The translations under genes were made by a program, and so were the position numbers. From the NCBI RefSeq assembly GCF_901411515.1, contig NZ_CABDUX010000002.1:248001-312000 (forward strand): DNA of 64,000 bases, in the 5' to 3' direction. The notes beneath the pieces were generated by a model. It worked only from the letters and a program-made list of their open reading frames with translations, was not told where the DNA came from and searched no databases. This stretch comes from Raoultibacter phocaeensis. GTDB lineage: Bacteria > Actinomycetota > Coriobacteriia > Coriobacteriales > Eggerthellaceae. Below are positions 14,554 to 53,526 of the stretch, piece by piece (the stretch's first letter is position 1; the number at the start of each line of letters is the position of its first letter).

Positions 14554-14789
14554 GGGGAAATGGTATCTTTAGCACTAAGATTTACGGTGTCCGATAGAAC
14601 ACATCAGGTGGTAACAGTAAGAAATGAGCACGTTTAGGAGCGCGTGGACTACCGATCGCACGTCGAACGGTCGGACGATTATGGTAATCTCTTAGATGCT
14701 TGAAGTCCACAGCGTCTTGGACGCGGTCTAAAAAACGAGAGAGCCGACTCTCTTATATGGCGAATGCAATAACTGGGGGTAGATGTTGC

Positions 14790-17842: not shown

Positions 17843-18040
17843 TTGGGCGGCTTAGTCGGTCGTACCCATAGCCCTTTGGCGCTAGGCTGATCTTTTGGCG
17901 TTTCCCGAGGTCGGCTATCGTCAAAAAATAGGTATGCACCCGAACACCAGCAACGGTACGATGACATCCTCTTTTGTCCGGAGCTATTCTTCGCGTCAAT
18001 GGCACCGTCATACGCCAGAGACGAGAAGGAGGAATGGCTC

Positions 18041-20533: not shown

Positions 20534-20899
20534 AGGAGGAGACGAACAATGACCAAGGCGATTCTCATCAACTACGAGTACTGCACGGGCTGCCACTCCT
20601 GCGAGGTGGCCTGCAAGAAGCACCTGGGCCTGCCGGCGGGCGAGTTCGGCATCAAGCTCTCCGAGACCGGGCCCTACGAGTACCGAGGCGCCCCCGAGGG
20701 CCCCGGCAGGTGGGAGTGGACGTGGCTTCCCGTGATCACGAAGGCCTGCGACCTGTGCGAGTCACGCACCGAGAAGGGCAAGATGCCCGCCTGCGTGCAG
20801 CACTGCCAGGCGTGGTGCATGTACTACGGCGAGGTCTCAGAGCTCGCCGCCAAGATGGACGGGGAGACGCGCTGGGCGCTCTTCACGAAGTAGGCTGGC
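20525..20899 (+). repeat. 375-bp perfect repeat, copy 1 (other copy 26677-27051)
   Basis: Base-by-base reading finds no difference from the copy at 26677-27051. The identity covers the last codons of the catalytic gene, the ribosome site, the whole 4Fe-4S gene and 6 bases after its stop, then ends abruptly. The flanking catalytic genes M1 and M2 are clearly diverged. Confidence 0.95.
20549..20893 (+). CDS. 4Fe-4S electron-transfer subunit FeS1 of M1
   Basis: A 114-residue ferredoxin-like protein. C12, C15, C18 and C22 form one 4Fe-4S motif (C-x2-C-x2-C-x3-C). C67, C70, C82, C86 and C90 supply the second. It is much shorter than the roughly 275-residue small subunit of pyrogallol hydroxytransferase and has no membrane anchor. 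It probably passes electrons to the Mo site of M1. It starts 15 bases after M1 behind AAAGGAGGAG and is identical in DNA to FeS2. Confidence 0.9.
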   Translation: MTKAILINYEYCTGCHSCEVACKKHLGLPAGEFGIKLSETGPYEYRGAPEGPGRWEWTWLPVITKACDLCESRTEKGKMPACVQHCQAWCMYYGEVSELAAKMDGETRWALFTK

Positions 20900-24117: not shown

Positions 24118-26685
24118 ATGGCTGATTATCAAGAGTTTCTCGACGGAGTCGACCGCGAGGCGTACCACGAAGGGGAATGGCAGTGGGAGGAGGACGGCTA
24201 CACCGTCACCCGTACCTACCACTATTCGCCACCTGGATGCCATACGTCGTGCGGCATCCTTCTGTACACGAAAGACGGGAAGGTCGAGCGCGTCGAAGGC
24301 GATCCGCTCGATCCGTGCACGAACGGCAAGCTCTGCATTAAATGTCTGACGCTCGACGAATCGGTGAACCATCCGGATCGTTTGAAATATCCCATGCGAA
24401 GGGCTGGCGCGCGTGGCGAGAACAAATGGAAGCGTATTTCGTGGGACGAGGCGTACGACGAGATTGAAGCCAAGGTCAAAAGCATCTGGGAGACCGATGG
24501 CGGCAATGCGATCATCTGCGTCCACGGTACAGGCCGCAACATCAACTGGCAGGTGCCGTTCTTCGGTCAAGCCGGATTGAAGACCCCGAACATCTCGACC
24601 TTCGGTTTCACGGGTTTTTCGTGCTACATGCCCCGTATTTGCGGGTCGATCGCTCCTTTCGGCGATTTTCCGATCGTGGATGCATCCGAGACACATGCGG
24701 ATCGTTACAACAATGCCGAATGGGTGCCGCCCGAGGTGCTCGTCGTGTGGGGCAACGAGCCGCTCGCCTCGAATGCTGATGGCTACGTGGGCCATTGGCT
24801 CGTCCAGTGCGTGCAGATGGGCACGAAGATCATATCGATCGATCCGCGCCTGACCTGGTGGGGTGCTCGTGCTGAGTATTGGCTGCAGATCCGTCCCGGA
24901 ACCGATGCGGCGCTCGGTTGTGCGTGGCTGAACGTTATCATCGAGGAAGGCCTCTTCGATGAGGAGTACGTTGCCGCGTGGTGCGCGGGATTCGAGGAGC
25001 TGGCGGAATCGGTGAAGGATACGACTCCCGAGTGGGCGGCTGAGATCTGCGATCTCGATGCCGAGATGATCCGTGCATCTGCGCGTTTGTACGCGAATGC
25101 GAAACCGGGCGCCATCCAGTGGGGCCTTGCGTTCGACCAGCAGCTTTCCGCTATGGCGCTCTGTCTTGCCGGATGCGACCTCATGGCGCTTTGCGGCAAC
25201 GTCGACGTTCCGGGTGGCAACATCCTCGTGCACAACGCATTCGAGATCAACGCGGGCTACGCGTCGGGCGAAAATCTGACTCCAGCCGAGTGGCGGGCCA
25301 AAAAGTTGAACAACAACTTCGCCCTTTCGATCGAGGGTGGCGATTTTGTGGCTCACGCGAGCTCCGACGGATTGCTCCAAGCCATCGAAGACGGTTTCCC
25401 GTATCCCATCAAGATGATGTGGATACAATCGTCCAACACGCTTTCATGCCCGAGCCAGGATTCGCCGCGCGTGATGAAGGCCATGCAGAACATACCGTTC
25501 ATCGTCAACGCGGATCCCTACATTACTCCGACCTCGGTGGCGCTGGCCGACATCATCTTGCCAGTGGCGATGAGTGCGGAGCGCAATTCGGCTCGTACGT
25601 GGTGGTCACCCTGCCGCGCGATGGTGAAGGTTGCCGATTTCTACGAGGCGAAATCCGACGAGCAGATCATCCTCGAACTCGGAAAACGCTTGAACCCCGA
25701 GGTGTTCGGGCAATGGGAGACCGATATCGATTGGTTGAACTGGTATCTGCACGATGGAACCGGCTCGTTCTCAGCGACCACCGAGGCAACCGACCAAGGC
25801 GGAGCTAAGAACTCGGGAAAGACGCTATTTACCGCATCATGGGACGAGCTCGTGCGCGATCCGAGCATGGTCGGTCATGCCTACGACGAATTCAACGCTA
25901 CGTACAACAAGGCGGAAAAAGGGATGTTCCGGCCCGACGGTTCGGTGGGCTACGGCACGCCGTCCGGCAGGCTCGAACTTGCGCCTATGCTCTACCAATA
26001 CTGGGGCCTCTCCACGACGCCGTTTCATACCGAGCCGCCCGAGGGGCCGATTTCGACTCCTGAGCTTATGGGCGAGTATCCGCTCATCCTCACGTGCGGC
26101 GGCCGTTCGTTCGAATTCTTCCATTCGGAGCACCGTCAGCTGCCCACCATGCGCGAGCTTCACCCGCAGCCCTGCGTGCTCGTCAACCCGAAGACAGCCG
26201 AGCGCTACGGCATCGAAAACGGTCAGTGGGTGTGGATCGAGAACGATCACGGCCGTTTCAAACAGATCGCCAAGGTTTCCCCTGTCGTAAACGAGAAGAC
26301 CGTCCATGCCGAGCACGGATGGTGGTTCCCCGAGACCGAGGCGGCCGCGCCGTATCTGTTCGGTACGTTCGAATCGAATCCGAACAACTGCACCAAAGCG
26401 TTTGTGACGGGGCAAGGCGGCGTGGGTTCGCCGATCAAGGCCATGATATGCAGGATATACCCCGTCAAAGAGGGCGATACGATGCCGTATCAGCAGATTG
26501 CCGAAACGGGCAATTTCCCATGGTACGAAAAAGTCGAATCTCCTCGCCAAGGCGAAATCGATCGGTTCCACACTGCCTTGGACGAAGGCATGGAATACGA
26601 CGTTATGAAAAACGAGCTCATCGATCCCGCTACCGGTCAGCGTACCGATCTCAAAACCGGCGAAGCGATCGAGATCCAGGCCTAA
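24118..26685 (+). CDS. Molybdopterin oxidoreductase M2 (catechol dehydroxylase-like catalytic subunit)
   Basis: 855 residues from the ATG behind AGGAGAGG. Close paralog of M1: same MADY opening, C41, C45, C73 and C76, FTGFSCYMPR as candidate Mo-ligand motif, and ERNSARTWWSP in the second half. The last 40 residues extend beyond M1. The 230-base gap before it carries its promoter, with no clear consensus. It heads a run that continues through FeS2 into the corrinoid methyltransferase genes and M3, so its substrate may be the product of O-demethylation. The substrate is not known. Confidence 0.85.
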   Translation: MADYQEFLDGVDREAYHEGEWQWEEDGYTVTRTYHYSPPGCHTSCGILLYTKDGKVERVEGDPLDPCTNGKLCIKCLTLDESVNHPDRLKYPMRRAGARGENKWKRISWDEAYDEIEAKVKSIWETDGGNAIICVHGTGRNINWQVPFFGQAGLKTPNISTFGFTGFSCYMPRICGSIAPFGDFPIVDASETHADRYNNAEWVPPEVLVVWGNEPLASNADGYVGHWLVQCVQMGTKIISIDPRLTWWGARAEYWLQIRPGTDAALGCAWLNVIIEEGLFDEEYVAAWCAGFEELAESVKDTTPEWAAEICDLDAEMIRASARLYANAKPGAIQWGLAFDQQLSAMALCLAGCDLMALCGNVDVPGGNILVHNAFEINAGYASGENLTPAEWRAKKLNNNFALSIEGGDFVAHASSDGLLQAIEDGFPYPIKMMWIQSSNTLSCPSQDSPRVMKAMQNIPFIVNADPYITPTSVALADIILPVAMSAERNSARTWWSPCRAMVKVADFYEAKSDEQIILELGKRLNPEVFGQWETDIDWLNWYLHDGTGSFSATTEATDQGGAKNSGKTLFTASWDELVRDPSMVGHAYDEFNATYNKAEKGMFRPDGSVGYGTPSGRLELAPMLYQYWGLSTTPFHTEPPEGPISTPELMGEYPLILTCGGRSFEFFHSEHRQLPTMRELHPQPCVLVNPKTAERYGIENGQWVWIENDHGRFKQIAKVSPVVNEKTVHAEHGWWFPETEAAAPYLFGTFESNPNNCTKAFVTGQGGVGSPIKAMICRIYPVKEGDTMPYQQIAETGNFPWYEKVESPRQGEIDRFHTALDEGMEYDVMKNELIDPATGQRTDLKTGEAIEIQA

Positions 26686-27051
26686 AGGAGGAGACGAACA
26701 ATGACCAAGGCGATTCTCATCAACTACGAGTACTGCACGGGCTGCCACTCCTGCGAGGTGGCCTGCAAGAAGCACCTGGGCCTGCCGGCGGGCGAGTTCG
26801 GCATCAAGCTCTCCGAGACCGGGCCCTACGAGTACCGAGGCGCCCCCGAGGGCCCCGGCAGGTGGGAGTGGACGTGGCTTCCCGTGATCACGAAGGCCTG
26901 CGACCTGTGCGAGTCACGCACCGAGAAGGGCAAGATGCCCGCCTGCGTGCAGCACTGCCAGGCGTGGTGCATGTACTACGGCGAGGTCTCAGAGCTCGCC
27001 GCCAAGATGGACGGGGAGACGCGCTGGGCGCTCTTCACGAAGTAGGCTGGC
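26677..27051 (+). repeat. 375-bp perfect repeat, copy 2 (other copy 20525-20899)
   Basis: Identical to 20525-20899. The tract includes the end of M2, the ribosome site, FeS2 and 6 bases past its stop. Outside it the sequences diverge immediately. Confidence 0.95.
26701..27045 (+). CDS. 4Fe-4S electron-transfer subunit FeS2 of M2
   Basis: A 114-residue protein with two 4Fe-4S cysteine sets, identical in protein and DNA to FeS1. It starts 15 bases after M2 behind AAAGGAGGAG. The same electron donor therefore serves two different catalytic subunits, which suggests that the small subunit does not determine substrate choice. Confidence 0.9.
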   Translation: MTKAILINYEYCTGCHSCEVACKKHLGLPAGEFGIKLSETGPYEYRGAPEGPGRWEWTWLPVITKACDLCESRTEKGKMPACVQHCQAWCMYYGEVSELAAKMDGETRWALFTK

Positions 27052-27055
27052 AAAG

Positions 27056-27085
27056 CATCCCGAAGAAGGCACCTTCTTCGGGATG
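27056..27085 (+). terminator. Stem-loop between FeS2 and the methyltransferase genes
   Basis: CATCCCGAAGAAGG pairs perfectly with CCTTCTTCGGGATG (14 bp, 2-base loop on paper, 4 or more in practice), 10 bases after FeS2. Only TTG follows, so it is at best a partial terminator. It may set the ratio of M2/FeS2 to the downstream corrinoid genes. Confidence 0.55.
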
Positions 27086-27163
27086 TTGCCGAACGTTCGC
27101 AGAGGTTTTGCGCCATCGCCGCCAAAAAAACGGCAAGCGATGTGCGACGAGGGAGAAGGCGAT

Positions 27164-28234
27164 ATGGAAAAAATAACCGAGCGCGAAAACTTTATGCGTA
27201 TGATCGGGCGCAAGCAGCCCGATTTCATACCTCATCAGCCGAGCCTGCTGCAGATGATCATCCCGAGTGCTTTGGGAGATCGTGCCGAGATGTGCTCGAC
27301 GGGATACGACTGGTTCGGTGTGCATTGGACGGAAGACCCCGCTATGCCCATGATGCCTATGGTGACGCCGGGAAGCGATCCTGTTCTCGAGGACATCGAG
27401 GATTGGGAAGAGGTCATCGTGTGGCCCGACCTCGATGCGATCGATTGGGAGGCATGCGCGAAGAAAGATGTTCCCGAAAAGGATCCCACGAAGATTCTCT
27501 GCGCGATGATGCTTTCGGGCCCTTTCGAGCGCCTGCACGATCTCATGGGGTTCGAAGAGGCTCTGTGTGCGCTCGTGACCAATCCCGATGACTGCGAAGC
27601 CTTCTTCAGCCGTTTGTGCGACTTCAAGATCGAACAGATCAAACGTTTGAAGCGATATTACGACATCGATATGGTTCATTTCCAGGACGATTGGGGCACG
27701 CAAAACGATCTGATGTTTCAGCCTGAACTTTGGGAGAGCCTCATTCGCCCGCACGTTCAGCGTGTTGTCGAGGCGGCTCATGAGGTCGGCGTTCTGTTCG
27801 ATCAGCACAGTTGCGGCAAGATCGACAGAATCGTCGGCAAGGTGATCGACATGGGCATCGATGTGCTCGATCCCGCTCAACCGGTCAACGACCTTGAGCG
27901 GTGGATAGACGAATACAAAGACCGAGTGATCTTCATGGGAGCTCTGGACGCGCAAAACGTGATCGACAATCCCGAAGCCACTGATGAGCAGATTATGGCC
28001 GAAGTAAAGCAGAAAATCGATGTGTTCGGGAATGCGGGAGCCTATTTCATACCTTTCGCCGTGTCGCTTACCCCCAACGTCATGAAGGCGCTCGACGACT
28101 GCTTCGTGTACGGCAGGACGTTCTACGGCGATGGGTATGCTGACGACGTCGAGGCGTTCAAGGTGGAAGCGGAAAAGCGGGCAGGCGAGCCGGTGAAGAT
28201 GGGAACGGTACCCGGAACTGAAATGAACCAGTGA
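27164..28234 (+). CDS. UroD-like corrinoid methyltransferase (DDWG type), probable substrate-side MT I
   Basis: 356 residues from the ATG behind GGGAGAAGG. The fold is that of the uroporphyrinogen decarboxylase family (PF01208), which includes MtaA, MtbA and CmuA. HFQDDWGTQ lies at 162-170, and QHSCG (H205, C207) is a plausible zinc-thiolate site. True HemE residues are not evident. The next gene encodes a corrinoid protein, so the likely role is moving a methyl group from a substrate, plausibly an aryl methyl ether, to cobalt(I). This is inference from family and context. Confidence 0.78.
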   Translation: MEKITERENFMRMIGRKQPDFIPHQPSLLQMIIPSALGDRAEMCSTGYDWFGVHWTEDPAMPMMPMVTPGSDPVLEDIEDWEEVIVWPDLDAIDWEACAKKDVPEKDPTKILCAMMLSGPFERLHDLMGFEEALCALVTNPDDCEAFFSRLCDFKIEQIKRLKRYYDIDMVHFQDDWGTQNDLMFQPELWESLIRPHVQRVVEAAHEVGVLFDQHSCGKIDRIVGKVIDMGIDVLDPAQPVNDLERWIDEYKDRVIFMGALDAQNVIDNPEATDEQIMAEVKQKIDVFGNAGAYFIPFAVSLTPNVMKALDDCFVYGRTFYGDGYADDVEAFKVEAEKRAGEPVKMGTVPGTEMNQ

Positions 28235-28315
28235 GAAGGGTTTATGTGGCACACGCGAACCCGTCCGATCAAAGTGTTGACTTCGGAGATTGAAATCTCC
28301 GAGAAAGGGCAGCTC

Positions 28316-28957
28316 ATGACTGTTGTGGAAGATATTTCGAGTGCGGTGCAGCGCGGCAAGAAGAAAGAGGTCAAACCCCTCGTCCAGCAAGCGATCGACG
28401 AAGGTGTCGATCCCGCGGTGATTCTCAACGAAGGGCTCATTGACGCAATGGCGATAATCGGCGAGAAATTCTCCGCAGGCGAGGTGTTCGTTCCCGAAAT
28501 GCTCGTCGCCGCACGCGCGATGAGTGCGGGAACCGAGATTCTCAAACCCCATCTTGCGGGGGAAAGCGCGGAGCCGTTGGGTAAAGCCGTCATTGGCACC
28601 GTCAAAGGCGATATGCACGATATAGGCAAGAACCTCGTGCGCATGATGATCGAGAGCAAGGGCTTCGAGGTTACTGATCTCGGAGTCGATGTGGCGCCCG
28701 AAACGTTCGTGAGCTTCTTACAGGAGCACGAAGACGTCGATATCGTGTGCTGTTCGGCGTTGCTCACGACTACCATGCCGGCGATTTCGGCCACCATCCA
28801 GGCTATCGAGGATGCGGGCTTGCGCGACAGCGTCAAGATCATGATCGGAGGAGCGCCGGTAACCCAGGCGTTTGCCGACGAGGTAGGGGCCGATGCGTAC
28901 ACAGCGGATGCGGGTGCCGCTGCGGTACGCGCAGCCGAGCTCGTAAGCCAATCCTGA
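28316..28957 (+). CDS. Corrinoid (B12-binding) methyl-carrier protein, MtaC/MttC-like
   Basis: A 213-residue protein. A helical cap domain covers about 1-88, and a Rossmann B12 domain starts near 90. GDMHDIG (D99, H101, G104) is the base-off/His-on cobalt ligand motif. VCCSALLTTTMP and IMIGGAPVTQAFADEVGAD supply the remaining corrinoid contacts. It carries methyl between the two methyltransferases that flank it. The ATG at 28316 follows AAAGGG. An 8-bp hairpin (CGGAGATT/AATCTCCG, 28284-28301) sits in the leader. Paralog at 37033. Confidence 0.93.
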   Translation: MTVVEDISSAVQRGKKKEVKPLVQQAIDEGVDPAVILNEGLIDAMAIIGEKFSAGEVFVPEMLVAARAMSAGTEILKPHLAGESAEPLGKAVIGTVKGDMHDIGKNLVRMMIESKGFEVTDLGVDVAPETFVSFLQEHEDVDIVCCSALLTTTMPAISATIQAIEDAGLRDSVKIMIGGAPVTQAFADEVGADAYTADAGAAAVRAAELVSQS

Positions 28958-28986
28958 TCTGTGCCCGTGACGAAGGAGAAAATCTG

Positions 28987-30006
28987 ATGAATATGAGGCA
29001 ATGGATTGCCGCCACCATCGCGGCTGAAAGGAAGAAGGCGCTGCCCGTCTTGTCGTTTCCCGCAGTTCAGCTAATGGATATCACTGTGCGGGATCTTATC
29101 GGCTCGTCTGATTACCAAGCCCGTGCCATGCGCTTGATCGCAGAGCGCGTCAACAGCGCTGCTTCGGTGTCGTTCATGGACCTGTCGGTGGAGGCGGAGG
29201 CGTTTGGAAGTCGTATCGTGGTATCCGACGAGGAGGTCCCCACGGTCGTCGGTTCCATTGTCGGCGAAGATTCTGTTATCGAAGACCTTGCGATTCCCTC
29301 GGTCGGTGCCGGACGCACGGGGTTGTATCTCGGTGCGATAGAAAGCGTGATCCCCCAGATTGTCGACCGCCCCGTCTTCGCGGGCATCATCGGCCCGTTC
29401 TCCCTTGCTGGAAGGCTTATGGATGTAACCGAGGTGATGATGCTGTGCTATGACGAGCCAGAGTTGGTGCACGGTGTGCTCAGGAAGTGCACCGATTTCC
29501 TCGTCGAGTACGCACGCGCATACAAAGACGTGGGAGCTCACGGTGTCGTCATGGCGGAGCCTTTGGCGGGGCTTCTATCACCGAGTTTGGCGGAGGAGTT
29601 CTCGTCGACCTATGTTCGCCGCATCGTTGATGCGGTGCAGGATGATGCTTTTGCGGTGATCTACCACAACTGCGGAGGCGGGGTGGTCAAATCGATCGAT
29701 TCGATCATCGAAACGGGCGCTTGGGGATTCCACTTCGGCAATGCTATCGATATGGCCGAGGTCGCACCGCTTGTTCCTGCCGATCGTCTCGTGATGGGAA
29801 ACGTCGATCCTGCGGGAGAAATCAGAAACGGAACTCCCGAAAGCGTTCGTGCGAAGACCTTCGAGATTCTCGAACGCTGTGCGCAGTATCCCAATTTCAT
29901 CATTTCGACGGGATGCGATATCCCCCCGATGGCGCCGTGGGAGAACATCGAGGCATTCTTTTTCGCAGTCGAAGAGTTCTACGACGAGAAGACGACGACC
30001 GAGTAG
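28987..30006 (+). CDS. MtaA/CmuA-like methylcorrinoid methyltransferase
   Basis: A 339-residue UroD-fold protein of the MtaA/CmuA branch. YHNCG (H227, C229) and STGCD (C310) give a His-x-Cys...Cys zinc site as in MtaA/MtbA. It starts 29 bases after the corrinoid protein behind AAGGAG, a pairing repeated at 37033-38749. MtaA moves methyl to coenzyme M. Coenzyme M is not expected in this group, so the acceptor or donor here (tetrahydrofolate, a thiol, or a methoxyl substrate) is open. Confidence 0.82.
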   Translation: MNMRQWIAATIAAERKKALPVLSFPAVQLMDITVRDLIGSSDYQARAMRLIAERVNSAASVSFMDLSVEAEAFGSRIVVSDEEVPTVVGSIVGEDSVIEDLAIPSVGAGRTGLYLGAIESVIPQIVDRPVFAGIIGPFSLAGRLMDVTEVMMLCYDEPELVHGVLRKCTDFLVEYARAYKDVGAHGVVMAEPLAGLLSPSLAEEFSSTYVRRIVDAVQDDAFAVIYHNCGGGVVKSIDSIIETGAWGFHFGNAIDMAEVAPLVPADRLVMGNVDPAGEIRNGTPESVRAKTFEILERCAQYPNFIISTGCDIPPMAPWENIEAFFFAVEEFYDEKTTTE

Positions 30007-30063
30007 CCTCGGCAATAAGGCTTTACATGATAGATAAGGACGAGAACGAGGAAGGATGTGACC

Positions 30064-32430
30064 ATGAGCGAAGACACGTTTTACAAAAAAGCGGAAGTAG
30101 TCAAGCTCGACACGCTTTCGGATGTGAACGACATCGGAAAGCCCTGGCGCTACGAGGAGGACGGCTTGACCGTGACACGGACAAGTCCCTGGTCGCCTCC
30201 CGGATGCCATCCGGTAGGCTGCGGCCTTAAACTTTACGTGAACGATGAGGGCAAATTGGTGAAAGTGGAGGGCGACGAGAACAATCCGGTTACCCAAGGC
30301 CGCCTGTGCCCGCGGTGCATCGCGTTGAAAGACTACATCTACAACCCCGCGCGCTTGCTTCATCCCATGAAGCGCGATCCGAAGGATCGTGGTAACGCGG
30401 ATGCGTGGGAGCAGATAAGCTGGGATGAGGCGTTTGCCATCATCAAGAAGGAGTACGATCGCATCACGGCAGCATACGGTCGCGAGAGCATCGTCGTGTT
30501 CGCAGGCACCGGGCGCGAGGGCGGCACGTTCGCCCCGTACGGAACCATGTGCTTCGGAACCCCGAACTTCTGCTATACGCAATCGGGCTATGCATGCTAC
30601 ACGCCGCGCCTGGCTGCCATCGCCTATATTGCGGGCACGACGTATCCCGAATGGGATTACGCAGGAGCCCTTCCCGGACGATGGGACGACGAGCGCTACG
30701 AGCTCACCGAGTGTCTTGTCGTGTGGGGCAAGGCACCGCTCGAGTCGAACCCAGACGGATTTTTCGGCCACGCGGTCATCGACGCGATGCGCCGCGGCAC
30801 CCGCCTCATCGTCATCGACCCCCGCGTCAACTGGCTTGCGACCCGAGCGGACATCCACTTGCAGCTGCGTGCCGGGACCGACACGGCCATGGGCATGGCG
30901 TGGTTGAACATCATCATCAACGAGGATCTGTACGACCATGATTTCGTCGAATACTGGTGTTACGGATTCGAGCAGCTCGCCGAGCGCGTGCAGGAGATGC
31001 CGCCTGAGAAGGCAGCCGAGATCTGCGACGTGCCGGTTGAGAAGATCTACGCTGCTGCGCGCATGTACGCCCAAGCAAAGCCTGCGGCCATCCAATGGGG
31101 CCTTGCAGCCGACCAGAAAACCGACGGCATGCAAAACGGCCAGGTAACGGTCGACCTCATGGCCATAACGGGCAATCTCGACGTTCCCGGGGGCCAGATT
31201 CTTCCCGGTACCGGTGCTGGCCACAACGAATCGGGCTTCGGCTTCGAGAAAGGCGTCGGCGAGGAACTCCAAAAGAAAATGATCGGTCTCGAGCAGTACC
31301 CGGCGTACTGCATGATCATCCTGAACGCCCACGCCGATCTTATGTTGCATGCGCTTGAAACGGGAGACCCGTATCCCATCAAGATGGGCTTCTATGCGGG
31401 CAACAACCTCATGAGCTGCACATCGATGGAGCCGAAGCGCTGGCATGACGCTATCGTGAAATCACTCGAATTCTGCATCGGATTCGATACGTTCATGAAC
31501 CCGTCTATCGAAGCTTCGTGCGATATCTTCCTACCGCTTTCGACGGTTGCCGAACGCGAGGGAACCGTGTTTACCCACTACGCCCCGTGCACGGTGACGG
31601 CAGGCTTTATGCACAAAGCCATCGAGGTGGGCGAGACCATGACCGATTTCGAACTGTGCTACGAGCTCGGTCGTCGCTTGCGCCCCGAAGTATGGGAGGA
31701 ATTCGCATCGGCGAAGGAATTCATGGAGGCTCTTCGACTGGGCCGTCGTGAACAGGGAAAGTACTTCGACGAGGTGTCCCAGAACGTGGTATGCCAGATT
31801 CCCGTAGACTATTATAAGTACGAGCGCGGCGAGATGCGTCAAGATGGTCAGCCCGGCTTCGCTACACCGACAGGGCGCGTCGAGCTCTGGTCGACAGCGT
31901 TCAACCAATTCGGCGACGACCCGCTCCCTTACTTCCTCGAACCCGAATTCGGGCCGTCGAATCCCGAGCTTATGAAGGAGTACCCCTTTATCCTGACGAC
32001 GGGTGCTCGTACGACGGCATTCTTCCATTCGGAGCACCGCCAGATCGCGTATCTGCGTGAGCTCAACCCCGATCCGATCGTTGAGATCAATCCCGCGGTT
32101 GCAAAAGAACTCGGCATAACCGATGGGCAGTGGGTGCGTATGAAGAGTCCATTCGGCGAGTGCGTCGAAAAGGCGCGCATCACCGAAACCGTTGACGAGA
32201 AGACCATCCATGCACAGCATGCTTGGTGGTTCCCCGAAGAGGACGGCAATGAACCGAACTTGTACGGCAACTTCCGCTCCAACATCAACAACCTTCTTCC
32301 CAACGACCATTACGGAAAACTCGGTTTCGGTGCTCCCAACAAGTGCTTGGTCTGCAGCGTGGAGCCCATTTCCGAGAATTACGACACCGACATGGATCTG
32401 ATTTGGGACAAATTCGGAAAGCTGGTGTAG
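30064..32430 (+). CDS. Molybdopterin oxidoreductase M3 (second subclade, with M7)
   Basis: 788 residues. The ATG at 30064 is preferred to a GTG six bases upstream because of spacing from GAGGAAGGA. Cluster cysteines are C48, C53, C82 and C85 (GCHPVGCG and RLCPRC), with one more residue in the first pair than M1. QSGYACYTPR is the candidate Mo-ligand motif, and VIDPRVNWLATRAD marks a cofactor-binding domain. No Tat signal. It shares the C-terminus YDTDMDL...KFGKLV with M7. It lies 57 bases after the methyltransferase gene, so O-demethylation and Mo chemistry are probably co-expressed. Confidence 0.85.
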   Translation: MSEDTFYKKAEVVKLDTLSDVNDIGKPWRYEEDGLTVTRTSPWSPPGCHPVGCGLKLYVNDEGKLVKVEGDENNPVTQGRLCPRCIALKDYIYNPARLLHPMKRDPKDRGNADAWEQISWDEAFAIIKKEYDRITAAYGRESIVVFAGTGREGGTFAPYGTMCFGTPNFCYTQSGYACYTPRLAAIAYIAGTTYPEWDYAGALPGRWDDERYELTECLVVWGKAPLESNPDGFFGHAVIDAMRRGTRLIVIDPRVNWLATRADIHLQLRAGTDTAMGMAWLNIIINEDLYDHDFVEYWCYGFEQLAERVQEMPPEKAAEICDVPVEKIYAAARMYAQAKPAAIQWGLAADQKTDGMQNGQVTVDLMAITGNLDVPGGQILPGTGAGHNESGFGFEKGVGEELQKKMIGLEQYPAYCMIILNAHADLMLHALETGDPYPIKMGFYAGNNLMSCTSMEPKRWHDAIVKSLEFCIGFDTFMNPSIEASCDIFLPLSTVAEREGTVFTHYAPCTVTAGFMHKAIEVGETMTDFELCYELGRRLRPEVWEEFASAKEFMEALRLGRREQGKYFDEVSQNVVCQIPVDYYKYERGEMRQDGQPGFATPTGRVELWSTAFNQFGDDPLPYFLEPEFGPSNPELMKEYPFILTTGARTTAFFHSEHRQIAYLRELNPDPIVEINPAVAKELGITDGQWVRMKSPFGECVEKARITETVDEKTIHAQHAWWFPEEDGNEPNLYGNFRSNINNLLPNDHYGKLGFGAPNKCLVCSVEPISENYDTDMDLIWDKFGKLV

Positions 32431-32432
32431 CC

Positions 32433-32927
32433 ATGACGACGTACGGACTATTGATTGATTACGAATTCTGCACGAACTGCGGTTCTTGCCAGGTTTCGTG
32501 CAAAGAGGAACACGCTTACCCTGTGGGCAAAACCGGCATTAAGGTTTTGTCCGACGGTCCGTGGAAGATTGATGACGAGCATTGGAACTGGAATTATTTC
32601 CCAGTGCTGACCGATTTATGCGACCTGTGCGCCGAGCGCGCGGCCGTAGGGCGCGAGCCGATGTGCGTACACCATTGTCTGGCAAACATCATAACGTACG
32701 GACCGGTCGAAGAGCTTGCCAAGAAACTCGAAGAGAAGCCGAAACAATTTCTCATGGTTCCCGAATTCAACCCCATCGTCTCCCGCGGAAAGTTCGTTCC
32801 GACGGGGAAGAGCAAACATCAGGCGGCCCACATCGAGGTTCAGGGTACCGGCAAGGCATCCTACGCCGTTCATCGGCACGATACCAAGGTGGGCGAAATC
32901 GACGAAACGGCCGAGCTTGGCGACTAG
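32433..32927 (+). CDS. 4Fe-4S electron-transfer subunit FeS3 of M3, with extra C-terminal tail
   Basis: 164 residues, starting 2 bases after the M3 stop. C13, C16, C19 and C23 make the first cluster. CDLC and the CVHHC set near 75-95 make the second, which has one Cys fewer than FeS1 (CLAN replaces CQAWC). A tail of about 45 residues after the ferredoxin core is unique to this copy and has no recognised motif. It probably donates electrons to M3. Confidence 0.88.
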   Translation: MTTYGLLIDYEFCTNCGSCQVSCKEEHAYPVGKTGIKVLSDGPWKIDDEHWNWNYFPVLTDLCDLCAERAAVGREPMCVHHCLANIITYGPVEELAKKLEEKPKQFLMVPEFNPIVSRGKFVPTGKSKHQAAHIEVQGTGKASYAVHRHDTKVGEIDETAELGD

Positions 32928-32955
32928 CACGAGACTCGAGCGAGACGAGGTAGGT

Positions 32956-33390
32956 ATGGGCGATACGAACAGAATAGGCAGAGTAGCCTCGATTCGATAC
33001 CGAGGTGGCGTGAAGGGCGAAGAACCCGCCGATGATCATTCGACGGGCGCACCGCTTGAGATAGTGCTCGGCGACATGAGGGTACCGCGAGGCATCGAAG
33101 AGGCCGTTTCCGACATGCAGGTCGGCGAGCAACGGGAAGTTGAGATACCTTGCGAGTTGGGGTACGGCCGCTATCAGGAAAAGCTTGCCAGCTGGCGGCC
33201 GAAATCCATGGTTGACGACGGGTACCGCCTCAAAGTCGGGGACGTCATATTCTGGACGAACCCAGACGACGGCCGTAAGATGCCGGTTTGGGTGGTAGAT
33301 GAGACCGAAGACAACATTCGGCTCGATTTCAACCATCCGTTTGCCGGAAAGACGCTCGTATATTGGATCGAACTCGTCGATTTGAAATAG
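32956..33390 (+). CDS. SlyD-like FKBP-type peptidyl-prolyl isomerase
   Basis: A 144-residue protein with the split FKBP fold of SlyD. The first half ends EVEIPCELGYGRY, an insert-in-flap region follows, and the fold returns at LDFNHPFAGKTL, the SlyD signature. The His/Cys-rich nickel-binding tail of E. coli SlyD is absent. It is encoded 28 bases after FeS3 in the M3 operon, so a likely job is folding or cofactor insertion for M3/FeS3. This is inferred from position only. Confidence 0.85.
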   Translation: MGDTNRIGRVASIRYRGGVKGEEPADDHSTGAPLEIVLGDMRVPRGIEEAVSDMQVGEQREVEIPCELGYGRYQEKLASWRPKSMVDDGYRLKVGDVIFWTNPDDGRKMPVWVVDETEDNIRLDFNHPFAGKTLVYWIELVDLK

Positions 33391-33399
33391 GTGGTCATC

Positions 33400-33609
33400 G
33401 TGTGCTATCCCTGCACGCAGTGCGGCCGATGCGGAAAGTACGAAGAAACGAGCCCGTACTACTCGCCTCCTGCAAAAGTGCCGTGCTTTACATGCGGTGG
33501 CGAAGTCGATCCCTCGACGGGTACGTGTGCGGCGTGCGGGGCCGTGGCGTTTGCTCCGAGCGGGACGAAGCTCGTCGAAACGCCCCCCGTTCGAGGGCAG
33601 CGTACGTGA
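33400..33609 (+). CDS. Small Cys-rich protein, MCYPC family
   Basis: 69 residues from a GTG, giving MCYPCTQCGRCG, followed by CFTCGG and CAACG pairs. The AGGTGG site fits this start better than the upstream in-frame GTG. It is the last gene before the terminator of the M3 operon. M7 has the equivalent protein at 63456, while M1, M2, M4, M5 and M6 do not. Perhaps a metal or cluster handling factor for the M3/M7 subclade. Function is unknown. Confidence 0.75.
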   Translation: MCYPCTQCGRCGKYEETSPYYSPPAKVPCFTCGGEVDPSTGTCAACGAVAFAPSGTKLVETPPVRGQRT

Positions 33610-33617
33610 TATGAGAT

Positions 33618-33651
33618 GGGGCCGGGGCTCTATGCGCCCGGCCTCTTTTTT
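33618..33651 (+). terminator. Rho-independent terminator of the M3 operon
   Basis: A GGGCCGGG stem pairs with CCCGGCCT (one G-U pair), with a loop of about 10 bases and then six Ts. It separates the M3 operon from the DUF169 gene. Confidence 0.8.
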
Positions 33652-33671: not shown

Positions 33672-34442
33672 ATGACTATCAAACCGCTCGAGCACGATTT
33701 CTCCGTTTTTGAAAAGCTCGGTTTCGAAGATCCCCCTGTCGGAGTTAAATTCGAGTACTTCAAGCCTAATTCTATCGAACGTCTCGATCGCTCGCTCGCG
33801 ATGTGCGAGATGGTGAAAGAAGCCCAGCTAAGAGACAGCGCTTTCTACATGGACGAGGGCAACGAGAACTGTATGGGCAAAGGGGCCATGGGGATGATGC
33901 CAGAAGATCCGAGCTGGGCCTGTGCCGGCTTGATCGGAGAACGCATGGGCATCTTCAAAGATGCTGGAGCCAACATGCGTTGCATGCAGCACTATACGAC
34001 ATTCGACAAGGGGGCGGTGAACTATGTTGCCTTCGCTCAGCTTTCCGCGCTCGATTTCGAACCCGATCTAATGGTGTTCAGCGGGCCGATGGAAACCTGC
34101 GAGATTGTTCTGCGGGCGATGGCGTATTCTACGGGCGAGATGTACGAATCTAAGGCAACGCCGGTGTTTCAGTGTTCGTGGCTGTACTCGTATCCCCAGT
34201 TGACAGGCAAGGTCAATTATATCGTTATGGGCACAGGGCACGGTACGACCGCACGCGAGACGTACAAGTCGGGAACGGTTCTCGTTTCGGTTCCTTCTCC
34301 GTGGTTTCCGGTGATTCTCGAAAATCTTGCAAGTATGGAGCTCGTCCCCCGTGCATGGTCAGTGGGGCGTGAAGCGTGGCTCGAAGAAGAGGGTGCCCTA
34401 TACGGAAAGCTTGCAGCCGACGCGGAAACGAGCGGCGAGTGA
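33672..34442 (+). CDS. DUF169 family protein
   Basis: A 256-residue protein with the DUF169 layout: PPVGVKFEYF near residue 22, a cysteine-containing middle (AMCEMV, ENCMGKGAMGM, WACAGL) and a C-terminal segment around MGTGHGTTARETYKSGTV. The ATG follows GTAAGGAGG. DUF169 proteins have no firmly assigned activity and occur in anaerobes and methanogens. Its place after the corrinoid/Mo operon suggests an accessory role in methyl or C1 metabolism, but this is only context. Confidence 0.8.
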   Translation: MTIKPLEHDFSVFEKLGFEDPPVGVKFEYFKPNSIERLDRSLAMCEMVKEAQLRDSAFYMDEGNENCMGKGAMGMMPEDPSWACAGLIGERMGIFKDAGANMRCMQHYTTFDKGAVNYVAFAQLSALDFEPDLMVFSGPMETCEIVLRAMAYSTGEMYESKATPVFQCSWLYSYPQLTGKVNYIVMGTGHGTTARETYKSGTVLVSVPSPWFPVILENLASMELVPRAWSVGREAWLEEEGALYGKLAADAETSGE

Positions 34443-36088: not shown

Positions 36089-36721
36089 TCAGACGAGCAC
36101 ACAGCTCGTGTAAGCGAGGGTGCCCTTTCCATGGTAGTAAGGTATGCCTGCCGATTCGCATACTTCGGAGACAACGAGGCCTGCTGCTTCGAGCGAAACG
36201 AAGGCACTGGTGGGGAATCGGCAGGGGGCGTCGGGGTAGGTACATGTGGGGCACAGGGTGCAGGTTCCTGCGGCGAGAAACAGCGGTTCGCCTGCGGCTT
36301 TTGCCGCTTCGCCCGGAGAGTCGCCTTTCCCCGATGCCGCGCTCAAGGTGGTGCGCACCGCTTGGGCGAAATGCGCAAACCGCTGTTTGTGAAGCACTTC
36401 GGCTTCCTGCATTCCCTCGATGTCGAACTCGTCTTCGAGGCGAGCGACCGTCTGCACGACGATTGCGGTTCCACGGTCGGCGATGAGCGCTGCGTACGTA
36501 TCGAGGCTTCCGCAAGCGGGCGGACACACCCAATTTTTACCGTACGCATGGCATCGGTCGACTGCGCACATGGCACGCACTTCGGGTCTGACGACAAGGT
36601 GCGATGCGTCTAGCGATCCAACCGTATCGAACCCCGCATCCCGTGCGATCCCGATCAGCTTGATCGACGGTTCGGATCCGCGGTTTTCCAGGGGAGAGCT
36701 GCCGCTTGCGATGGCTTCCAT
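36089..36721 (-). CDS. DUF2284 family metal-binding protein
   Basis: 210 residues from the ATG at 36721, which has a CAGGAG site. An in-frame ATG at 36760 without a site would add 13 residues. Cysteines cluster in two places: VCPPACGS with upstream CAVDRC (about 55-75), and CTLCPTCTYPDAPCR (about 155-170), the family's predicted iron-sulfur or zinc sites. DUF2284 genes recur next to corrinoid methyltransferases in anaerobes, as here. No enzymatic activity can be assigned. Confidence 0.8.
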   Translation of the reverse strand: MEAIASGSSPLENRGSEPSIKLIGIARDAGFDTVGSLDASHLVVRPEVRAMCAVDRCHAYGKNWVCPPACGSLDTYAALIADRGTAIVVQTVARLEDEFDIEGMQEAEVLHKQRFAHFAQAVRTTLSAASGKGDSPGEAAKAAGEPLFLAAGTCTLCPTCTYPDAPCRFPTSAFVSLEAAGLVVSEVCESAGIPYYHGKGTLAYTSCVLV

Positions 36722-37032
36722 ACAGGCTCCTGCCGACGGTTTCATTGGGTTTACAAGCATATTAGCATCGAAGTCTTAGGGCCGGGTTCGGCACTGCACC
36801 CGATTTGCGAAGATCAGCCTTTACGCCTCATGCTTCCTCTTGCCTGGCTTTCTAAACTGCTCGTAGCGTTTGGCGGTGCCGTATCGTTTGGCGGTGCGAG
36901 GCATGCTTGCCCGCATACGCCCGCATGCACGGGGGCGCATGATGGCGCAATGCGGGTCGCGTGCGACGCATGTGCGAGGCTGTGTCCGGCGCGCCAAGCA
37001 AAAAAAGCAATTTCGAGCTGTAAGGAGAACCC

Positions 37033-37671
37033 ATGTCAATCTACGACGATATCTCGAGCGCGGTTCAGCGCGGCAAGAAGAAGGAAGTCGCGCCGCTCGT
37101 GCAGCAGGCCCTCGACGAGGGATGCGACCCGATCGCGATCCTGAACGAGGGGCTCGTGCCCGCCATGTCCATCATCGGCGACAAGTTCTCCGCCGGCGAG
37201 GTGTTCGTACCCGAGATGCTCGTGGCGGCCCGCGCGATGGCCGCCGGAACCGAGATCCTGAAGCCGTTTCTGGCGGCCGAGGGCGCAAAGCCCGTGGGCA
37301 AGGCGGTCATCGGCACCGTGAAGGGCGACATGCACGACATCGGGAAGAACCTCGTGCGCATGATGATCGAATCCAAGGGCTTCGAGATCACCGACCTCGG
37401 CGTGGACGTGGCCCCCGAGCAGTTCGTGAGCTTTTTGCAGGAACACGACGACATCGACATCGTGTGCTGCTCGGCGCTCCTCACCACCACCATGCCCGAG
37501 ATCGCGACGACCATCGAGGCCATCGAGGAAGCAGGGCTGCGCGACAGGGTGAAGATCATGGTCGGGGGAGCCCCCGTCACCCAGGCCTTCGCCGACGAGG
37601 TGGGGGCCGACGCCTACACCGTCGATGCGGGGGCGGCGGCTGTGAAAGCCGTCGAGCTCGTGCAGGGCTAA
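37033..37671 (+). CDS. Corrinoid (B12-binding) methyl-carrier protein, second copy
   Basis: 212 residues, strongly similar to the protein at 28316 along its whole length. It has the same DISSAVQRGKKKEV opening and GDMHDIG cobalt ligand motif (D99, H101, G104). Codon third positions are visibly more G/C-rich than in the first copy. The leader contains a 13-bp direct repeat (CGTTTGGCGGTGC at 36867-36879 and 36885-36897) and an AAGGAG site. No cobalamin riboswitch core was recognised in the 311-base gap before it. Confidence 0.93.
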   Translation: MSIYDDISSAVQRGKKKEVAPLVQQALDEGCDPIAILNEGLVPAMSIIGDKFSAGEVFVPEMLVAARAMAAGTEILKPFLAAEGAKPVGKAVIGTVKGDMHDIGKNLVRMMIESKGFEITDLGVDVAPEQFVSFLQEHDDIDIVCCSALLTTTMPEIATTIEAIEEAGLRDRVKIMVGGAPVTQAFADEVGADAYTVDAGAAAVKAVELVQG

Positions 37672-37744
37672 AGGCGCATCCCGGCGTCGAAACCAATCGC
37701 CGCCTTTGATTTCGAGGCAGTTACAGCAAGGAGGGTGTTTGACT

Positions 37745-38749
37745 ATGGATATGCAGAAGTGGGCCGCCGACCTCATCGCGTCGGAAAAGAAGAAGCCCCT
37801 GCCGATCATCTCGTTTCCGGCCGTCCAGCTCATGGGCGTTTCGGTGCGCGAGCTTATCGGCGACGCGGCTTTGCAGGCCGAGGCGATGAGGGTCGTGGCC
37901 GAGCGCCTCGACGCTGCGGCCAGCGTGTCGTTCATGGACCTGTCGGTCGAAGCCGAAGCGTTCGGAAGCGAGATCCGCGTGTCCGACGAGGAGGTGCCCA
38001 CGGTGGTCGGCTCCATCGTGGACGAGGATTCCGATCCGGGCGAACTTTCCGTGCCCGAGGTGGGCGCGGGCCGCACGGGGCTCTACGTCGAAGCCATCCG
38101 CCGCGTGGCCCCGCTCATCGCCGATCGCCCCGTTCTGTCGGGCGTCATCGGCCCCTTCTCGCTTGCGGGCAGGCTCATGGACGTGAACGAGATAATGCCC
38201 CTGTGCTACGAAGAGCCCGAGCTCGTGCACGCCGTGCTCGAGAAGACCGCGGCGTTCACGGCCGCCTACGCCCAGGCGTTCAAGGACGCCGGGGCCGACG
38301 GCGTGGTCATCGCGGAGCCCATGGCTGGCCTGCTTTCGCCCGAGCTCGTGGGTGAATTCTCCACGCCGTACGTGCGCCGCGTGGTCGATGCGGTCCAGGA
38401 TGGGGCGTTTTCTGTGGTCTACCACAACTGCGGGGCGTCGGTCGTGAGGGCTCACGAGCAGGTTTTCGCTACCGGTGCGGCGGCGTACCACTTCGGAAAC
38501 GCCATCCCAATGGCCGACATCATGCCACTCGTCCCGGCCGACCGCATCGCCATGGGCAACGTCGACCCGGCGGGCCAGATCAAGAACGGAACGCCCGAAT
38601 CCGTGCGCCGGGCCACGCTCGAGCTCATGGAGTCGTGTTCGGGATACCCCAATTTCGTACCCTCGACCGGCTGCGACGTGCCGCCCATGGCCCCATGGGA
38701 GAACATCGAGGCCTTCTTCGGCGCGGTGGACGAGTTTTACGCACGTTGA
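37745..38749 (+). CDS. MtaA/CmuA-like methylcorrinoid methyltransferase, second copy
   Basis: A 334-residue close paralog of the protein at 28987, with the same zinc residues H227, C229 and C310. It follows its corrinoid protein by 73 bases behind AAGGAGG. The conserved order (corrinoid protein, then this enzyme) in both modules supports a fixed functional pair that either delivers methyl to a pool or receives it from one. Confidence 0.82.
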   Translation: MDMQKWAADLIASEKKKPLPIISFPAVQLMGVSVRELIGDAALQAEAMRVVAERLDAAASVSFMDLSVEAEAFGSEIRVSDEEVPTVVGSIVDEDSDPGELSVPEVGAGRTGLYVEAIRRVAPLIADRPVLSGVIGPFSLAGRLMDVNEIMPLCYEEPELVHAVLEKTAAFTAAYAQAFKDAGADGVVIAEPMAGLLSPELVGEFSTPYVRRVVDAVQDGAFSVVYHNCGASVVRAHEQVFATGAAAYHFGNAIPMADIMPLVPADRIAMGNVDPAGQIKNGTPESVRRATLELMESCSGYPNFVPSTGCDVPPMAPWENIEAFFGAVDEFYAR

Positions 38750-38824
38750 GCGATGCGTCATCGTACAGACCGCGCCGAGCGCGCTCACGCACTGCGTGCA
38801 CACATAGTGAAAGGAACGAATTCG

Positions 38825-39814
38825 ATGGAGATGACTCCAAAAGAAAATATGATGGCCATTTTCGAGGGAAAACAGCCGACGCAGTACGGCGATTTCCAAA
38901 GTGCCGTCAAGATTATGTTCGATCCGATTTGGATGAGCGATTCGGTGCCCGAAGATGGCCTTGAGCACAAGGATTCATGGGGGACGGTGTGCGTTCGCGC
39001 TATCGGCTCGCCGGGTAAGCATCCGCATGTGACGCCCGAGAACGCCGTGGTCAAAGACATCACGGAATGGAAAAGCCAGCTCGTCATCCCCTCGTACAAA
39101 GACCTTGACTGGAGCAGCGCGAAAGAACAGGCTGCAGCGGTCGATCGCAGCCAGCATTTCGTCGAATACTTCTGCGCCCAAGGCCTGTTTGAACGTTCCC
39201 ATTTTCTCATGGGTATGGAGGATGCGTTCTGCGCCTACCTCGAAGAGCCTGAGGCGATGATGGAGATGCTTGAGGCGATCGCCGAATACAAGAAGGCCGT
39301 CATCAAAGAAGCGGCTTTCCATTTGCATCCCGACGTCATCTTCTTCCAGGACGACTGGGGAAGCAAGCAGAACCTCTTTCTGCCGCCTGCCGTGTGGCGT
39401 GAGATGATCAAGCCGCTTCAAGCCGACATCGCTCAGACCATCCATGAGTGCGACATGCTCTACGTGCACCATGCCGACTGCATCTGCGAACCCATCGTCG
39501 AGGACATGGTTGAGATCGGAATCGACATCTGGCAGGGCGTCATCCCGCAAAACGACATCGTGTCCATCCAGGAGCGCACCGGCGGAAACCTCGCCATGAT
39601 CGGCGGTATCGACGGGCCTGCCATCGACGACGAGACCACGCCCGACGAGGCGATCGTACGCGAAGTGCACCGCTGCATCGATACGTACTGCCCGGCTGGC
39701 AGGTTCTTCCCCGGTGCACCGGCACCGCTTCTGCGTGCGCGCAACGGAGCTGTGCTGAATGCCGAGCTCGACCGCTACGGTCGCGAGTGGGCAGAAAAGC
39801 ATCCCATCGTGTAA
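38825..39814 (+). CDS. UroD-like corrinoid methyltransferase (DDWG type)
   Basis: 329 residues from the ATG behind GAAAGGAA. It has the conserved FFQDDWGSKQ motif (164-172) and HHADC (205-209) at the zinc-site position, so His and Cys are present but spaced by one more residue than in 27164. It directly follows the second corrinoid/MtaA-like pair and is closed by a terminator. Probable substrate-specific methyl transfer to the corrinoid protein, by family and context. Confidence 0.77.
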   Translation: MEMTPKENMMAIFEGKQPTQYGDFQSAVKIMFDPIWMSDSVPEDGLEHKDSWGTVCVRAIGSPGKHPHVTPENAVVKDITEWKSQLVIPSYKDLDWSSAKEQAAAVDRSQHFVEYFCAQGLFERSHFLMGMEDAFCAYLEEPEAMMEMLEAIAEYKKAVIKEAAFHLHPDVIFFQDDWGSKQNLFLPPAVWREMIKPLQADIAQTIHECDMLYVHHADCICEPIVEDMVEIGIDIWQGVIPQNDIVSIQERTGGNLAMIGGIDGPAIDDETTPDEAIVREVHRCIDTYCPAGRFFPGAPAPLLRARNGAVLNAELDRYGREWAEKHPIV

Positions 39815-39819
39815 GCAAG

Positions 39820-39847
39820 GGGCCCGCTGTAAGCGGGCCTTCGTTTT
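39820..39847 (+). terminator. Rho-independent terminator before the OYE-type gene
   Basis: GGCCCGCT pairs with AGCGGGCC around a 3-base loop, followed by TTCGTTTT. It ends the corrinoid operon beginning at 37033. Confidence 0.75.
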
Positions 39848-39900
39848 GCTCGGAGGCTCGTCACCTCAGGCGTGCCTGCGAGCCGATCAAGGAGGTTGCC

Positions 39901-41889: not shown

Positions 41890-41908
41890 GTGCCGTCATG
41901 CGACCGAA

Positions 41909-41936
41909 GCGCCCCCGTACTTGCATGCGGGGGCGC
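41909..41936. terminator. GC-rich stem-loop between convergent genes
   Basis: GCGCCCCCG pairs with CGGGGGCGC (9 bp, 10-base loop) between the OYE-type gene and the convergent activator gene. No T run on either strand, so termination is likely but not certain. Confidence 0.5.
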
Positions 41937-41951
41937 AACGCATCGAGACTT

Positions 41952-43535: not shown

Positions 43536-43804
43536 CGCATGTTCCTTCTCGCATGATCTATTACGGCAATGATATCGCATCGTGGGCCCGACGCACGGGA
43601 CGAGGCGCCTTACGCGAGCGCGGACGGCAAAATAGGACATCACGCCCTATGACTCGGTTTTGATGCGCCTATACAATCGATGTGCCGGTTGCTCTGTACG
43701 CGTCGATGCGAACGACAGGGCGCAGCGGCTGCACTGACGTCGCGGTAGCGGGTGAAAAGCTCAGCCCGACTTCTGCCGACCCGCCACGAAAGGAAAACGA
43801 TCGC

Positions 43805-53187: not shown

Positions 53188-53526
53188 GTGAAGGGCATTC
53201 TCATCAACTACGAGTACTGCACGGGCTGCCACTCCTGCGAGGTGGCCTGCAAGAAGCACCTGGGCCTGCCCGCGGGCGAGTTCGGCATCAAGCTCTCCGA
53301 GACCGGGCCCTTCGAGTACGAGGGGAAATCCGGCAAGGAGCGCTGGGAGTGGACGTGGCTTCCCGTGATCACGAAGGCCTGCGACCTGTGCGCCGACCGC
53401 ACCGAGAAGGGCAAGATCCCCGCCTGCGTGCAGCACTGCCAGGCGTGGTGCATGTACTACGGCGAGGTCTCCGAGCTCGCCGCCAAGATGGACGGGGAGT
53501 CGCGCTGCGCGCTGTTCACGCGCTAA
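53188..53526 (+). CDS. 4Fe-4S electron-transfer subunit FeS5 of M5
   Basis: 112 residues, opening MKGILINYEYCTGCHSC with both 4Fe-4S sets (C12, C15, C18, C22; CDLC; CVQHCQAWC). The GTG start directly abuts the M5 stop codon, and its ribosome site (GGAGGG) lies inside the M5 coding region, so translation is probably coupled. The DNA from the second base of the start codon onward is identical to FeS6. Confidence 0.9.
   Translation: MKGILINYEYCTGCHSCEVACKKHLGLPAGEFGIKLSETGPFEYEGKSGKERWEWTWLPVITKACDLCADRTEKGKIPACVQHCQAWCMYYGEVSELAAKMDGESRCALFTR

Follow-up and report, generated by a model that had tools for sequence, protein, structure and literature searches.

A corrinoid methyl-transfer cassette joined to molybdenum dehydroxylase-like genes in Raoultibacter phocaeensis

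Introduction

Three-component O-demethylases, exemplified by MtvBCA of Moorella, the Odm and Vdm systems of Acetobacterium dehalogenans and the archaeal Mto system, combine a UroD-superfamily methyltransferase I, a small corrinoid protein and an ATP-dependent activator with an MtrH/MtvA-type methyltransferase II that feeds tetrahydrofolate or tetrahydromethanopterin (PMC13222342, PMC8630106). The characterised aryl O-demethylase methyltransferases MtvB, OdmB, VdmB and MtoB are all members of the UroD superfamily (PMC13222342). Here we describe a cassette encoding a UroD-like methyltransferase (UroD1), a corrinoid protein (Cor) and an MtaA-like methyltransferase (MtaA), placed among molybdenum dehydroxylase-like genes in a 64,000-nucleotide stretch of the Raoultibacter phocaeensis genome (contig NZ_CABDUX010000002.1, positions 248,001 to 312,000; hereafter the window, with coordinates counted from its first nucleotide). 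With the O-demethylases it shares a UroD-superfamily candidate for methyltransferase I, a two-domain corrinoid protein (B12-binding_2 and B12-binding) and a RACo-type activator encoded in the genome. A limited literature search found no report of corrinoid O-demethylase genes in Eggerthellaceae.

The Gordonibacter-type catechol dehydroxylases (Cldh/(-)-Eddh, (+)-Eldh1/2, Gp Hcdh and Gs Vadh) provide a second comparison. Like the present locus they belong to Coriobacteriia and consist of a two-gene module of a molybdenum (Mo) subunit and a small iron–sulfur (FeS) subunit, accompanied by MFS transporters and a regulator, whereas no cluster described in PMC11887054 is reported there to include a corrinoid methyltransferase (PMC11887054). 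Acetylene hydratase is reported to be the closest solved structure to catechol dehydroxylases (PMC7028382), and among sequence features the window likewise holds Mo subunits close to acetylene hydratase (M2 and M3) and small FeS genes directly behind Mo subunit genes (FeS1, FeS2 and FeS3). Demethylation of guaiacol-type phenols followed by catechol dehydroxylation has until now been described chiefly as a relay between different gut bacteria. In multi-species lignan conversion, demethylation by Blautia precedes dehydroxylation by Eggerthella or Gordonibacter (PMC13418474, PMC11887054); the chemical order would be the same here, but both steps would be encoded in one cluster.

A cassette between dehydroxylase-like modules

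An earlier note on this DNA had described a nine-gene run on one strand, and all of its genes are present in that order on the plus strand (24118–33609). The run begins with the Mo dehydroxylase-like subunit M2 (24118–26685) and the 4Fe-4S subunit FeS2 (26701–27045). These are followed by UroD1 (27164–28234; 356 amino acids; URO-D, 7e-13), the candidate substrate-specific methyltransferase I; Cor (28316–28957; 213 amino acids; Pfam B12-binding and B12-binding_2), the putative methyl-carrying corrinoid protein; and MtaA (28987–30006; 339 amino acids; URO-D, 1.4e-53), a predicted second methyltransferase of the Mlp kind. Behind the cassette lie the dehydroxylase-like catalytic subunit M3 (30064–32430; 788 amino acids), its predicted 4Fe-4S electron-transfer subunit FeS3 (32433–32927), a SlyD-like FKBP isomerase (32956–33390; FKBP_C, 4e-13) that stays with M3–FeS3 in relatives and is a probable maturation factor, and a Cys-rich protein of 69 amino acids with a GTG start and no Pfam match (33400–33609). 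M2 and M3 both carry the Molybdopterin, Molydop_binding and Fe4S4 domains and have acetylene hydratase (2e7z) as their closest solved structure, and FeS2 and FeS3 match 4Fe-4S families of Pfam and NCBIfam.

The short spacing described earlier is borne out by intergenic gaps of 15, 118, 81, 29, 57, 2, 28 and 9 bp from M2 to the Cys-rich gene, and the proposed terminator corresponds to a GC hairpin followed by T6 at about 33617–33650 (+), with a fold z of only −1.5. Between FeS2 and UroD1, the 118 bp of intergenic sequence contain a perfect 14-bp inverted repeat without a T-run (27056–27085, +; segment fold z −4.8), and M2–FeS2 may form a separate transcription unit that ends there. A consensus promoter scan returned nothing useful.

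The cassette occupies the upstream region of M3

Comparison with a congener that lacks UroD1 (G086) locates the cassette precisely. The congener carries M0–FeS1–MFS–MFS–M2–FeS2 and, beyond a LuxR gene and some unrelated genes, M3 (97% identical)–FeS3–SlyD–DUF169–trigger factor. Nucleotide collinearity with the window ends at the FeS2 stop codon and restarts 25 bp before the M3 start, and between these breakpoints lies a segment that, relative to the congener with its different DNA at this place, is specific to the R. phocaeensis genome (27046–30038, +) and carries UroD1–Cor–MtaA in place of the M3 upstream region. No convincing insertion footprints, sought as direct repeats at the cassette ends, were found.

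The replaced region is one that relatives conserve. In eight of them (G086, G060, G066, G067, G068, G069, G039 and G040) a ATCGTCAA-N6-GGTA-like sequence lies at −124 to −129 of M3. The window retains this common element, as TTTCCC...ATCGTCAA-N6-GGTA, upstream of another Mo subunit gene, M0 (17901–17934, +), and nothing like it occurs within 1.2 kb upstream of M3. By these alignments M3 lacks here the upstream sequence kept by its orthologs, the region having been replaced by the cassette so that M3 follows MtaA at 57 bp. Because the conserved element is gone, M3 probably depends on transcription of the cassette, and we infer, as the simplest reading, that UroD1 through the Cys-rich gene are co-transcribed. 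In a second genus (G060), UroD1–Cor–MtaA likewise precedes M3–FeS3–SlyD; there about 400 bp separate the cassette from M3, and this gap still holds the M3 upstream element.

UroD1 is linked to Mo genes in a second family

UroD1 orthologs are present in 4 of 138 Eggerthellaceae genomes. Outside this family they occur, at 59–64% identity, in six of the genomes sampled, which belong to two further families of the order. In one of these families (f6), four genera carry UroD1 directly behind an M0–FeS1 module on the same strand, and in two of the four (G411 and G367) M3 lies nearby, beyond a pair of LuxR-type genes. The corresponding genes of the window are M0 (18044–20533, +), recognised by tblastn and synteny, and its 4Fe-4S subunit gene FeS1 (20549–20893, +), with two membrane LuxR-type regulators carrying a GerE domain (14700–16334 and 16377–17810, both +), the pair that is linked to M0 and M3 in relatives.

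Mo genes number about 12 per Mb in a 568-kb sample of f6 genomes, an uneven sample in which six of the seven Mo genes come from one genome; from it, the probability per locus of finding by chance a same-strand Mo gene that ends no more than 700 bp upstream is roughly 0.4%. The f6 UroD1 proteins are 75–81% and 85% identical, and because the four loci share descent the linkage indicates long conservation of one arrangement, not four inventions. Orthologs in G420 and G414 lie on contigs of 3.3 and 3.6 kb, and these short contigs hold no Mo gene. All four f6 genomes in which UroD1 follows M0–FeS1 also have relatives of Cor (64–68% identical) at other places; the Cor neighbourhood in this family was covered in short loci only.

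These comparisons uphold the joining of a methyltransferase, a corrinoid protein and an MtaA-like protein to Mo dehydroxylase-like genes, a linkage that for UroD1 extends over two families, and they revise its partners. The earlier note had named M2 and M3; M3 holds, and M2 gives way to M0, about 7 kb upstream. The congener has M2–FeS2 but no cassette, and in the window a strong hairpin sets this pair apart. Since M2 is also found without UroD1 it is probably incidental, and the conserved set is UroD1, M0 and M3. The observation made earlier is thus confirmed and is strengthened by the displaced M3 element and the f6 linkage, and its interpretation as a pathway is partly supported.

The same evidence bears on an alternative in which a variable island has collected the cassette and the dehydroxylases as independent modules for xenobiotic respiration, their adjacency having no meaning for a pathway. 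The 3.86-Mb genome gives this idea room: PF00384 has 91 matches, of which a few are fragments of one gene, leaving close to 90 molybdopterin genes, and these are dense around the window. In the congener and in G066–G069, M3 and M0 are complete although UroD1 is absent. Across Eggerthellaceae, moreover, UroD–Mo proximity is only 1.9-fold above expectation (20 of 75 clusters against 10.8 expected, kin loci counted apart), and we judged this general co-localisation weak. Such an explanation nevertheless fits poorly with the displaced upstream element and the 57-bp gap at M3, with the identical cassette–M3 order in G060, and with the persistence of a Mo–FeS–UroD1 order across four genera of a different family, in which Mo genes are sparse. 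The displaced element and the f6 order, both read from genome comparison, go well beyond the family-wide proximity signal, and we regard mere co-residence in an island as unlikely.

Assignment of the methyl-transfer proteins

The AlphaFold model of UroD1 (predicted local distance difference test score 91.7) matches first the methylcobalamin:CoM methyltransferase of M. mazei (4ay8 and 4ay7) and next HemE; the structure of CdmB is not among its fold matches, and a PDB search with the UroD1 sequence gave no match. In trees UroD1 groups with sequences from Acetobacterium and other anaerobes, mostly clostridia (the order inside the group being unresolved in one tree), well apart from the window's UroD2 and UroD3. 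With UroD2, UroD3 and the MtaA proteins encoded in the window it shares only 24–31% identity. UroD1 contains the tripeptide HSC and no matching later Cys motif. The O-demethylase zinc motifs D-X27-C-X39-C and E-X14-E-X20-H were sought in UroD1, and neither was found.

MtaA, aligned to 4ay7, keeps both the H-x-C motif and the later Cys, which we take to be the zinc ligands of this family. It falls below the curated NCBIfam cut-offs for MtaA and MtaA/CmuA (152 of 244 bits for NF004889, 126 of 235 for TIGR01463 and 108 of 400 for NF040654) and sits in the tree among other MtaA-like proteins of Eggerthellaceae. The best NCBIfam matches of Cor are methyltransferase corrinoid proteins, also below their curated cut-offs, and Cor is 83.5% identical to Cor2, encoded at 37033 in the window. 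Because UroD1 groups with Acetobacterium and clostridia, MtaA with Eggerthellaceae MtaA-like proteins and Cor with Cor2 at this identity, the cassette looks composite. The asymmetry in zinc motifs would suit a division of roles in which UroD1 is methyltransferase I and the thiol-directed methyltransferase II is MtaA.

The label 'three-component', used in the earlier note, fits loosely. A methyltransferase I, a corrinoid protein and an activator are all recognisable, the last being the single RACo of the genome (41952–43643, −), whereas the second methyltransferase is of the MtaA type with thiol-type zinc ligands in place of the MtrH/MtvA type. A genome search for an MtrH/MtvA-type methyltransferase II acting on tetrahydrofolate found none, Pterin_bind occurring only in FolP-FolK and in an 882-amino-acid MetH; nor was CdhC (acetyl-CoA synthase) found. 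There is one MetF homolog. Since the tetrahydrofolate-type second methyltransferase was looked for and is absent, we would not file the locus as a classical three-component O-demethylase.

In lacking a tetrahydrofolate methyltransferase while pairing an MtaA-like methyltransferase with a corrinoid protein, the locus resembles bacterial Mlp clusters; however, Type 1 Mlp clusters, for which S- or Se-methyl compounds are the proposed substrates, encode three Mlps together with an activase of their own (PMC10418091), whereas a single MtaA is accompanied here by UroD1 and Mo enzymes. The MetH (L087, 568–3216, −) ends after its B12 domain and has no space for a reactivation domain at its C terminus, so that its corrinoid may rely on a different reductase.

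A possible demethylation–dehydroxylation pathway

On balance we lean slightly towards reading the locus as a two-step reductive pathway in which UroD1 demethylates an aryl methyl ether and M0 and M3 dehydroxylate the catechol that is freed. UroD1 would present the aryl methyl ether to Cor in its Co(I) state, Cor would take the methyl group, and a phenol or catechol would be released. MtaA would then transfer the methyl group of Cor to an acceptor, for which a thiol is the likeliest candidate, with RACo re-reducing Cor. Finally, M3 and M0 with their FeS subunits would remove a hydroxyl from the unmasked catechol, which would serve as electron acceptor. We infer the aryl ether as donor, the thiol as acceptor and the feeding of the product to M0 and M3. 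The fuller proposition, that one Coriobacteriia genome holds a self-contained demethylate-then-dehydroxylate pathway in which an MtaA-type enzyme hands the methyl group to a thiol instead of tetrahydrofolate, is put forward tentatively and with some doubt.

Several findings weigh against the two-step reading, beginning with the modest family-wide proximity given above. M0 and M3 are 91–97% identical in genomes without UroD1 and under strong purifying selection, and they therefore have another or a broader job that does not need the demethylase. M3 in particular, whose orthologs are 88–97% identical in nine relatives, is 94–97% identical in five genomes without UroD1, and for that reason is not dedicated to a demethylated substrate. 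The nearest Acetobacterium relatives of UroD1 stand alone, without Mo genes; the UroD1 trees were built from sequences that did not include the characterised O-demethylases MtvB, OdmB, VdmB and MtoB; and in G040 a minus-strand toxin–antitoxin-like pair separates UroD1 from an M3 paralog.

Two further points of this kind concern the donor: some UroD-superfamily relatives of O-demethylases take haloalkanes, CdmB among them, which does not use methoxylated aromatics (PMC13222342), and bacterial MtaA-like proteins and their Mlp gene clusters have been proposed to serve S- or Se-methyl compounds (PMC10418091). UroD1–Cor–MtaA could accordingly handle an S-, Se- or halo-methyl compound in methyl salvage or detoxification, the dehydroxylases being secondary neighbours, and the Mlp-like MtaA with its thiol-type zinc ligands, together with the failure to find an MtrH-type enzyme or CdhC in the genome, is compatible with that. 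These features of MtaA bear on the acceptor side, however, and say nothing of the donor. In two families UroD1 occurs in linkage with genes of the aromatic dehydroxylase type, and the proteins closest to it come from acetogens and clostridia. We therefore hold a non-aryl donor to be improbable, more so than chance co-residence in an island.

If the two-step pathway exists, O-demethylation would unmask an electron acceptor for anaerobic respiration, in place of feeding the Wood–Ljungdahl pathway as in acetogens. Both steps could then be carried out by a single organism on methoxylated lignans, flavonoids or drugs, and the gene arrangement would be a genetic marker to look for. The locus also draws attention to the methyl acceptor of bacterial MtaA-like proteins, occurring as it does in a genome with neither an MtrH-type enzyme nor a detected acetyl-CoA synthase, and it offers a testable case in which a dehydroxylase gene has been parted from the conserved upstream element that was its own and placed behind the genes of another pathway.

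Related genes in the window and genome

All seven matches to PF01208 lie at 275–359 kb of contig C2, with one further UroD relative at 333 kb. Corrinoid proteins comprise Cor, Cor2, a third copy at 357 kb of the same contig and the B12 domain of MetH; one more match, the fifth, is weak and below the cut-off. Cor2 belongs to a second corrinoid locus in the window (36089–44797) with a DUF2284 protein, MtaA2, UroD2, a flavin enoate reductase-like protein, RACo and UroD3, and a DUF2284–RACo–Cor–MtaA–UroD set recurs across the family. The third corrinoid cassette (UroD, UroD, Cor, MtaA; 5721–13905 of L099, G000:C2:345000-364900) is downstream of another Mo–FeS–SlyD module, with a CobW-type GTPase between them. 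A search of the window for a PucR-type regulator divergent from a UroD3-like gene found none; in G060 and G039 such a regulator is divergent from the UroD3-like gene that precedes UroD1 (L095, 9304–10902, −; L097, 2710–4392, +).

Past the terminator, a DUF169 protein (33672–34442) occupies the same place as in the congener, and one is near UroD1 in L007. On the minus strand, 9315–13475 encodes a 1386-amino-acid protein whose start, judged by reading its sequence, resembles an activator of the dehydratase/benzoyl-CoA reductase type; a relative, 39% identical, is near UroD1 in G411.

Between genera, M3 and M0 are 91–97% identical, against 51–56% for the neighbouring regulators and about 62% for trigger factor. 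Recent horizontal transfer was considered for the 94–97% identity and rejected, the synonymous divergence (dS) being above 1 and the ratio of nonsynonymous to synonymous divergence (dN/dS) 0.01–0.07. M5 and M6 were considered as the lignan pair Eldh1/Eldh2, which was unsupported: they are 86% identical, against 74% for Eldh1/Eldh2 (PMC11887054).

The small FeS genes form near-identical pairs (20549–20893, 26701–27045, 53188–53526 and 56208–56546 in the window; further genome copies in L165–L170). The GC content at third codon positions is 0.96–0.97 in the six paired copies and 0.56–0.85 in 23 of 24 less similar paralogs. FeS1 and FeS2 are identical in nucleotide sequence, and in the congener the two copies are likewise identical to each other. 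This looks like gene conversion, perhaps GC-biased, with strong codon selection as the alternative.

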